A stretch of 54,683 nucleotides of DNA from Clostridia bacterium. Lineage in GTDB: Bacteria; Bacillota; Clostridia; Oscillospirales; CAG-272. Under the pieces are notes generated by a model, which ran no database searches, was not told the DNA's origin, and was given only the letters and a program-made list of their open reading frames with translations. Positions 8,913-11,562 of this stretch are shown here, piece by piece. How positions within the stretch are numbered: the stretch's first letter is position 1; every line of letters starts with the position of its first letter. A program made the translations under genes and the position numbers. Where the stretch lies: the NCBI GenBank assembly GCA_017532425.1, contig JAFXJH010000132.1, positions 1 through 54,683 of the forward strand. Direction: 5' to 3'.

Positions 8913-8944
8913 TAAGCAGAAAATCAATATAAGGAGGTTTGCTA

Positions 8945-10738
8945 ATGTCTAATCAAAACGGACAACCGAATAAGAAATCACCGTCAATGCGTGAGCTTCT
9001 GATACGAATAGTAGCAGGAATACTTTGCTTTCTTATGGTTTTCTCTCTTCTCGTTGTAGTGATCAGTGCGTATGAAAACCGCGCAGTCGATCTGAGAATC
9101 GGAGAAGAAGTTGACGTCGGACTTTTCTATTCGGATCATTTGGCAGAAAGCTTTACTGCAAGCACCGAGAAGGGATTTCGACTCGAGATCCCTTCCGACG
9201 AGGGCACACTTACCTTCGATAATGCAAGTGAGATAAAGTCGATTTCTGTGGCAAGCGGAGAAAATCTTCTTAAAAACGGAGGCGCTTACGTAAGCGCAGG
9301 TAAAAACACGGATATACACGTGGGCGGATACCGCATAATGGTGTCATCCTACTCAACAAAGGTTGGCGGATCGGCAGATAAGGATAATATCCTTCTTTTC
9401 AGACCGACAACATCGACTACCGTCGCGTTTGATAAAGACAATATCGGCGGATATATAAAAAGAATATCAAATACGGTCGAAACGCTTGGAAGCCACGCTT
9501 TTCCGGCATATATAGACGGAAAATATTACGTTTGCCTGGGCGCATTTGAAAGTAAAGAAAAGGCGGAAGCATTTTTAGAATCGTTCGGCAATTCGTACGT
9601 TTGTGAATATACGATAACAGAACCGGATAAAAAAGCATATTCGGTCATAGATTTTCAGACAAATAAGGTAATATTCCATTTCTCGGGAATAAAATCTCTT
9701 TCGGTCACTCCGGTCGCAAATGCACCATTTTCCGCAAATGGCGGAGACGAGTATTACGGACGCCTGCTTTTAAAGAAAAACGGAGAAATCGGATTCGAGG
9801 TCGTGAATACGCTCTGTATGGAAGAATACGTGGCATCAAGACTTGCATCTACGGTCGATCCCGAGTGGAATATAGAGGCACTCAAGGCTGTCGCAACGGT
9901 AATACGTACAAACGCTTATGCGGGCATCGGCGATAAGTCGGCTCATAAAAATGACGGCTTTGATTTCTGTACCGATGCGCACTGCGGCGAGTATCACGGA
10001 TGCGGAAACGTAAATGAAAATGCCGCATCTGCAGTGAATTCCACGCAAAATGCGGTAATAAAGAGCGAAGGTGAGCTTATAAACGCGGTGTTTGGCACAA
10101 GCTATCCGGGTGCGACTCTTTCTCTTGAAGATGCATACGGAGAAATACTTTCGTCAAGCGGAAAATATCTCACGGGAAGACTTACCGCATGGGAAAAATT
10201 TGAGGAAAGATATGCGGGAAGCTGGCAGAGCGAGGTATCTCCGTACGAGCTTTACGAAATGCTTTCACAGAGAGTTTCTGACTGTAAGCTTGAAGGAAAT
10301 ATTTCGGAGATAAAAATAACAAAACGCTCGGAAAACAGCGTTTACGTTACGGAAATTGAATTCACCGATATATTCGGAAATAAGCTGACTCTTAGCGGAA
10401 GTGAGGTAATAAGAAACCTTCTTTCGGGAATCGTGAAAGGCGCAAGCTTTAACGTCGGAAAGTCGGGCGAAGAGATAAAAGAGACAGTGCTTAAGTATGA
10501 CCCCGAGTCAAAGAGCACGGCGGCATCGGAAAGGGCGGTAAAGCTTGAAGGCGCATACGGCAATTTTATCTTTGCAGGACACGGAAGCGGAAGCGGACTC
10601 GGAATGAGCCTTAACGGCGTAAACGATATCGTAAATAACGGATATTCGTACGAAGATGCGTATATAGACGTTATAAATCTCTATTATACCGACGTGACCG
10701 TGGAAAAAATAAAATCAAATGATCCGGATGAAATATAA
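8945..10738 (+). CDS. SpoIID/LytB-domain cell-wall protein, membrane-anchored
   Basis: SpoIID-family proteins are lytic transglycosylases that cleave glycan strands lacking stem peptides during engulfment; LytB-type members modify the wall in other contexts. This 597-residue protein has an N-terminal transmembrane helix (about 20-42), a SPOR-like segment (about 185-225, AYIDGKYYVCLGAFESKEKA) and a SpoIID domain beginning near residue 270. The EEYV signature and Cys-rich FCTDAHC..YHGC are present, but the position normally held by the catalytic Glu (AAEMP in the family) reads ASTVD here, so activity is uncertain. The ATG at 8945 has AAGGAGG 7 bases upstream; an in-frame TTG at 8939 is rejected. 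Confidence 0.88.
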   Translation: MSNQNGQPNKKSPSMRELLIRIVAGILCFLMVFSLLVVVISAYENRAVDLRIGEEVDVGLFYSDHLAESFTASTEKGFRLEIPSDEGTLTFDNASEIKSISVASGENLLKNGGAYVSAGKNTDIHVGGYRIMVSSYSTKVGGSADKDNILLFRPTTSTTVAFDKDNIGGYIKRISNTVETLGSHAFPAYIDGKYYVCLGAFESKEKAEAFLESFGNSYVCEYTITEPDKKAYSVIDFQTNKVIFHFSGIKSLSVTPVANAPFSANGGDEYYGRLLLKKNGEIGFEVVNTLCMEEYVASRLASTVDPEWNIEALKAVATVIRTNAYAGIGDKSAHKNDGFDFCTDAHCGEYHGCGNVNENAASAVNSTQNAVIKSEGELINAVFGTSYPGATLSLEDAYGEILSSSGKYLTGRLTAWEKFEERYAGSWQSEVSPYELYEMLSQRVSDCKLEGNISEIKITKRSENSVYVTEIEFTDIFGNKLTLSGSEVIRNLLSGIVKGASFNVGKSGEEIKETVLKYDPESKSTAASERAVKLEGAYGNFIFAGHGSGSGLGMSLNGVNDIVNNGYSYEDAYIDVINLYYTDVTVEKIKSNDPDEI

Positions 10739-10781: not shown

Positions 10782-10817
10782 AAAAAACTCACTACTTTAA
10801 AAAGTAGTGAGTTTTTT
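10782..10817. terminator. Symmetric hairpin terminator after the SpoIID-like gene
   Basis: A 17-bp perfect inverted repeat (AAAAAACTCACTACTTT and its complement, two bases between arms) gives an A-run on one side and a T-run on the other, so it can terminate in both directions. It ends only about 9 bases before the structured RNA begins. Confidence 0.9.
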
Positions 10818-10825
10818 CTGTTAAA

Positions 10826-11012
10826 TGTGGGCCCCGCCGTACCGTGGGTCAAGAAATATAACCCTGCCTATCGCCAGGGTGGTGTCCTCTCCGATGCTTT
10901 ATGGTGCTCCCAACGTCTTAAGATAGACCGTGACGTAAGCAGGGTCTAAATAAGGAGGTCTGCACTCCGGCGCGGAAGTTTATCCGGACTCCATTATCAT
11001 TTTGTAGGTTTA
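10826..11012 (+). ncRNA. Structured non-coding RNA, candidate raiA-motif RNA (identity unverified)
   Basis: This GC-rich stretch in an AT-rich gap has no plausible reading frame but many local pairings: ACCCTG (10861-10866) with CAGGGT (10875-10880), TAGACC (10924-10929) with GGTCTA (10943-10948), and GGAG (10954-10957) with CTCC (10989-10992) or with the nearer CTCC (10965-10968), as if alternative folds exist. A terminator follows at 11063, so the transcript runs on the plus strand. Its length (about 190-200 nt), stand-alone position and conserved-looking single-strand segments remind me of the clostridial raiA motif. 6S RNA is the main alternative. Naming is from memory; structured-RNA status is better supported than identity. 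Ends are approximate. Confidence 0.6.
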
Positions 11013-11062
11013 TTTACCTGACATTTCCACGCATAAAGCAGGAAGCCCGATAACAGAATATT

Positions 11063-11115
11063 CGGAAGGATGCCGGAAAATACCTTTATCAGCCCGGCAT
11101 CTTCCGCTTTTCTTT
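11063..11115 (+). terminator. Terminator downstream of the structured RNA
   Basis: CGGAAGGATGCCGG (11063-11076) pairs with CCGGCATCTTCCG (11094-11106) with one bulge, followed by CTTTTCTTT. The T-rich side is on the plus strand, so it ends transcripts coming from the RNA candidate and not the convergent DUF1292 gene. Confidence 0.8.
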
Positions 11116-11178: not shown

Positions 11179-11499
11179 TTATTCTGCGTCGTAATCGATC
11201 TCGGAGAAGAGCATATCGTCGAAGATATCAGCGATGCGATCGTACTCGTCATCGTCCTCGATTGTAACGAGAGAAACGCCACCGTCGTCCTCTTCCTCAA
11301 CCTTGAGAATAACGTATTCCTCAGCCTCGGAGCCGTCCTCGTTAATGGGAGCGAGAGCGTAGTAGATAGAGCCGTTGTCATCCTCGTAGGTTTCGATAAG
11401 CTCGAACTTGGATTCTGTTCCGTCCTCTTCGTCTGTAAGTGTGAGTATGCCGAATTCCTCTTCGGGAAGCTCGTTTGCATTCTTTATTTCATCGTTCAT
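11179..11499 (-). CDS. DUF1292 family protein (YrzB-like)
   Basis: A 106-residue, very acidic protein with the DUF1292 pattern (GILTLTDEEDGTESKFELIETYEDD...YYALAP....EEYVILKVEEED). The family is widespread in Bacillota with unknown function and usually sits near ruvX/yrzL-type genes; here it is a single-gene unit. The ATG at 11499 is preferred because AAGGA lies 11 bases upstream. An in-frame GTG three codons earlier is too close to that site. Transcription comes from a strong promoter at 11534-11562. Confidence 0.9.
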   Translation of the reverse strand: MNDEIKNANELPEEEFGILTLTDEEDGTESKFELIETYEDDNGSIYYALAPINEDGSEAEEYVILKVEEEDDGGVSLVTIEDDDEYDRIADIFDDMLFSEIDYDAE

Positions 11500-11533
11500 T
11501 GGTATCACGTTCCTTTCTTTATTTTGTAACTCT

Positions 11534-11562
11534 ATTGTACACTATTTTGTGTTTTCTGTCAA
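11534..11562 (-). promoter_or_regulatory. Sigma-A promoter of the DUF1292 gene
   Basis: Read on the minus strand: consensus TTGACA (11557-11562), 17-bp spacer, TACAAT (11534-11539). Confidence 0.9.

Follow-up and report, generated by a model that had tools for sequence, protein, structure and literature searches.

A Divergent 6S RNA Gene Located Directly Downstream of a DUF1292 Gene in a Clostridia Genome

Results

Organization of the Locus

The window analyzed in this work is a stretch of 54,683 nucleotides from the genome of a Clostridia bacterium. Two protein-coding genes, both verified with Pfam, frame the region of interest: a SpoIID gene at positions 8939-10738 and, on the minus strand at positions 11179-11508, a gene for a small acidic protein of the DUF1292 (YrzB-like) family (Pfam PF06949, 61 bits). 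The element that we assign to 6S RNA (ssrS) is located between them on the minus strand at positions 10827-11048. It is approximately 220 nt in length, and its placement is based on the Rfam 6S model, an order-level covariance model (R1), covariation, and the predicted fold. An intrinsic terminator for this RNA is found on the minus strand at positions 10782-10817 and consists of a 16-bp stem followed by a T-rich tail. A strong hairpin is located on the same strand at positions 11063-11106, past the stop codon of DUF1292 and ahead of the 5'-end of the 6S RNA.

The original prediction placed a stand-alone structured RNA at positions 10826-11012, between the SpoIID and DUF1292 genes, and its account of the surroundings was found to be accurate. 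The stretch is noncoding, with no open reading frame of at least 60 amino acids across the element, and it is not a tRNA, since neither tRNA nor tmRNA is present anywhere in the window. The structured RNA itself is real, but it is transcribed from the minus strand and not from the plus strand on which it had been read. With an end at 11012, approximately 36 nt are lost from the 5'-end of an RNA that extends from about 11048 to 10827. The ends of the longer element are paired with one another, GGGC (11048-11045) with GCCC (10832-10829), and thus close a rod. The predicted terminator also exists, but at a different place: it spans 10817-10782, which is upstream of the element in the direction originally read. 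Together with the length of the element, this terminator would be in keeping with the abundant, growth-phase-regulated transcript of approximately 200 nt that is expected of the 6S family. The terminator and the DUF1292 gene belong to one unit with the 6S RNA. The A/T flanks of the terminator are symmetric, and it may serve the SpoIID gene on the plus strand as well. Matches of the Rfam families SpF36, Yfr10, ohsC, and miRNAs at the terminator are weak, and these were dismissed as chance hits to a hairpin with A/T flanks.

The choice of strand was examined further by comparing predicted folds. The minus strand between 11049 and 10827 folds with an energy of -78.5 kcal/mol (z = -3.0), and only 1 of 200 shuffled sequences was equally good. 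Local helices can form on the plus strand too, and a structured RNA of that strand, or an element in the 3'-untranslated region of the SpoIID gene, would be the corresponding explanation. The fold of the plus strand, however, has a z-score of -0.97, with 37 of 200 shuffles equally good, compared with -3.0 for the minus strand with the correct ends, and the terminator hairpin separates the SpoIID gene from the element. Among the paired positions of the homologous sequences (see below), the minus strand reading yields 293 G-U pairs and 54 A-C mismatches. This large excess of G-U pairs over A-C mismatches identifies the minus strand as the one that is transcribed, and a structured RNA on the plus strand is exceedingly improbable.

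Assignment to the 6S RNA Family

At their gathering scores, no Rfam family was detected in the window, and default searches of the whole genome with Rfam likewise miss the element. A match above the gathering cutoff was thus not obtained for this sequence, but close homologues do pass. When all 4227 Rfam families were searched permissively, the best match at the locus was to 6S RNA (RF00013) on the minus strand. The alignment covers the full length of the model (positions 1-187) with a score of 24.8 bits, against a gathering cutoff of 46.4 bits that is a detection limit set during curation and not a biological feature. The Rfam 6S model also matches at most of the homologous places in other genera, in the orientation equivalent to the minus strand of the window. 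Two of these matches, in genomes G010 (61.0 bits) and G054 (51.6 bits), exceed the cutoff, and homologues with scores above it occur in the same taxonomic family and order.

The R1 covariance model was built from 24 relatives within the order that pass the Rfam 6S cutoff, with this genus excluded. Searched against the genome of 2.38 Mb, R1 recovered the element at full length with a score of 99.2 bits (E = 6.7e-22). This was the sole significant match; the next best match scored 9.8 bits, and no second copy of 6S RNA was found with R1 in this assembly, which is approximately 85% complete. In 59 relatives, R1 identified 6S RNA in 54, essentially as a single copy per genome, whereas the Rfam cutoff was passed in 24 of the 59 and missed in the other 35. 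The apparent absences of 6S RNA in this order of gut Clostridia are therefore mostly failures of detection. 6S RNA is expected in nearly every bacterium.

6S RNA had been the second choice in the original prediction, and it is supported by both the full-length Rfam match and R1. The favored identity, the raiA motif (a ModT-type RNA), was not sustained, as no match to it was obtained at the locus (E ≤ 10) or elsewhere in the genome. The length of the element, a host from the Bacillota, and the adjacent gene of the SpoIID family are all in keeping with a raiA-motif RNA. The conserved structure, however, is a single long rod with a bubble that covaries as a 6S RNA; the raiA assignment is refuted by the result with the 6S model, and we regard its probability as negligible. 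A search for raiA across the relatives also gave no match, and this result is uninformative because the control genomes gave none either.

A low Rfam score, which is seen throughout the genus, could also be taken as the mark of a degenerate and nonfunctional relic of a 6S gene. The element is full length, however, and its DNA is 88-96% identical in three congeners, with DNA homologues in several other genera as well. The terminator is intact, 40 of the 45 consensus pairs are retained in the sequence from the window, and the genome has no other 6S copy (at approximately 85% completeness of the assembly). A relic is thus very unlikely. We conclude that the element is the single 6S (SsrS) RNA gene of this genome, encoded on the minus strand and folded as a rod that would imitate an open sigma-A promoter (probability of approximately 0.97). 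It is a divergent member of a known family, and this identity is in itself ordinary.

Secondary Structure and Covariation

For the analysis of covariation, 52 sequences were aligned to R1, and the consensus structure was extended to 45 pairs. The fraction of paired cells was determined to be 89.7%, compared with 77.6% in shuffled alignments and 39-47% when the partners were slid by 1-3 columns, with the proviso that the alignment was fitted to the 28-pair structure of R1 and somewhat favors that structure. Changes on both sides were found for 33 of the 45 pairs, a number that was reached in none of 500 shuffles, and the covariation score was 0.368 versus 0.169 in the shuffles. Given the size of this effect and the slid controls, covariation by chance is untenable. 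The covariation across the 52 sequences is strong.

The closing stem, the central bubble, and the internal stem are all backed by compensatory changes. In the unconstrained minimum-energy fold of the sequence, some of the pairing within the internal arm deviates from the consensus. The 3'-strand of the central bubble contains a hairpin, ACCCUG-GCGAUAGG-CAGGGU, on the minus strand at positions 10861-10880. In this helix (helix 7, 10880-10861), 93.9% of the cells are paired across the 52 sequences, and 4 of the 6 pairs have changed on both sides.

The 5'-strand of the central bubble contains the motif AACCUACA (minus strand, 11003-11010), for which the consensus is AACCYACA. Columns C64, C65, A67, and C68 of this motif are each conserved in 50-51 of the 52 sequences. 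In the 6S RNA from B. subtilis, synthesis of the product RNA (pRNA) starts at nt 40. By analogy with that position, the motif would be the region where the template for a pRNA begins; the predicted product, 5'-GUAGGUUUAUUUACCUG..., would be read from position 11004 of the plus strand onward and would thus start with 5'-GUAGG.

Linkage to DUF1292

Of the 54 genomes of the order with an R1 match (that of the window included), 51 have a DUF1292 gene immediately before the 6S RNA in the same orientation, where the neighbors were scored with a profile built from these neighbors themselves and all six that were checked in Pfam were DUF1292. The distance from the stop codon of DUF1292 to the 6S RNA has a median of 19 nt and a range of 1 to 303 nt; in the window it is 131 nt. 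The other neighbors are shuffled, and the most common gene family within approximately 1.4 kb was found in 3 of 47 genomes downstream and 6 of 47 upstream. Outside of the order, DUF1292 occupies the equivalent place and orientation at 20 of the 67 loci from the class that were examined.

Two other RNA elements were observed next to 6S RNA in single relatives from the same family. In genome G006, a Gut-1 RNA (RF01706; locus L007, 1712-1787) scores 50.2 bits against a cutoff of 50 and follows the 6S RNA, in the same orientation, after approximately 24 nt; it was not seen at any other locus scanned. In genome G011, the 6S RNA is followed on the same strand, at a distance of approximately 225 nt, by a T-box leader (locus L039, 1938-2182).

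A promoter of the sigma-A type, TTGACA-17-TACAAT, is located upstream of DUF1292 on the minus strand (11534-11562) and matches the consensus at 11 of 12 positions. It is the probable promoter of the DUF1292-6S unit. In 80% of the genomes, compared with 4.6% of shuffles, the 200 nt that precede DUF1292 contain a sigma-A promoter that matches the consensus at 10 or more of the 12 positions. Within 100 nt upstream of the 6S RNA, such a promoter was found in 6% of the genomes, compared with 1% of shuffles. A TATAAT-like box occurs just before the 6S RNA in 58% of the genomes with a long gap (18% in shuffles) and in 21% of those with a short gap (9% in shuffles). In the window, where the gap is of the long kind, the search for a promoter belonging to the 6S RNA itself returned a weak -10-like sequence alone (TATTCT, 11060-11055), and a -35 sequence was not found.

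Since promoters close to consensus precede DUF1292 and mostly none precede the 6S RNA, the sequences suggest that the 6S RNA is likely part of a processed DUF1292-6S transcript. Transcription from the DUF1292 promoter followed by processing is favored, possibly with an additional contribution from a weak promoter of the 6S RNA itself.

The hairpin at 11063-11106 has a calculated energy of -23.5 kcal/mol. It is not followed by a run of T residues, and a scan for terminators was negative at this position. Its sequence is retained, or compensated with G-U pairs, in three congeners, as read by eye. This hairpin is a possible signal for processing. The upstream arm of the hairpin can alternatively pair with TTCCGCTTTT farther upstream.

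Discussion

Members of the 6S family mimic an open promoter, bind the RNA polymerase holoenzyme that contains the primary sigma factor, and are freed by the synthesis of a pRNA (PMC8876501). In C. acetobutylicum, 6S RNA is strongly expressed and occurs in several processed forms (PMC3879012). For the RNA described here, we propose that transcription would start, at least in part, from the strong promoter before DUF1292, and that the 6S RNA would then be processed out of this transcript. The RNA is predicted to fold as a rod with a closing stem, a central bubble, and an internal stem, and this rod, as judged from the family, would imitate an open sigma-A promoter. Once accumulated, typically in stationary phase or under stress, it would bind the sigma-A RNA polymerase holoenzyme. 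The polymerase would subsequently copy a short pRNA from the 5'-strand of the bubble, and this would lead to release of the 6S RNA.

The linkage between DUF1292 and 6S RNA is the sole part of these results that is of interest to the specialist. Preservation of the pair suggests cotranscription and offers a clue to what the DUF1292 protein does. We tentatively suggest that, throughout the order, the 6S RNA is the processed 3'-part of a DUF1292 mRNA made from a near-consensus sigma-A promoter and that DUF1292 is a functional partner of 6S RNA, a proposal that in our estimation falls a little short of an even chance. If it is correct, DUF1292 could, for example, be a stationary-phase protein under the same control of RNA polymerase, and the pair has been kept together while its neighbors were shuffled. 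No prior report that pairs 6S RNA with DUF1292 was found in the literature searched, which was largely open access.

Comparison with Known Systems

The raiA motif, or ModT (RF03072), is a class of structured RNA that is similar in length and occurs in the Bacillota (PMC11706538), but no match to this family was obtained at the locus. With 6S RNA (SsrS, RF00013), the element shares its length, a rod with a central bubble, an alignment to the full length of the model, and homologues that score above the cutoff. It differs from RF00013 in that the sequence from the window itself falls below the Rfam cutoff and in that the apical arm carries an extra, variable stem-loop, in which 40 nt replace 5 positions of the model. 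The hairpin in the 3'-strand of the bubble has been described for B. subtilis 6S-1 RNA and predicted for 14 Firmicutes (PMC8876501); the same hairpin is present and covarying here. In lactic acid bacteria, 6S RNA has its own promoter, and the region upstream of it typically overlaps the end of rarA (PMC8414754). The RNA described here departs from this Firmicutes type in two respects: the neighboring gene is DUF1292 rather than rarA, and most genomes of the order have no recognizable promoter directly before the 6S RNA.
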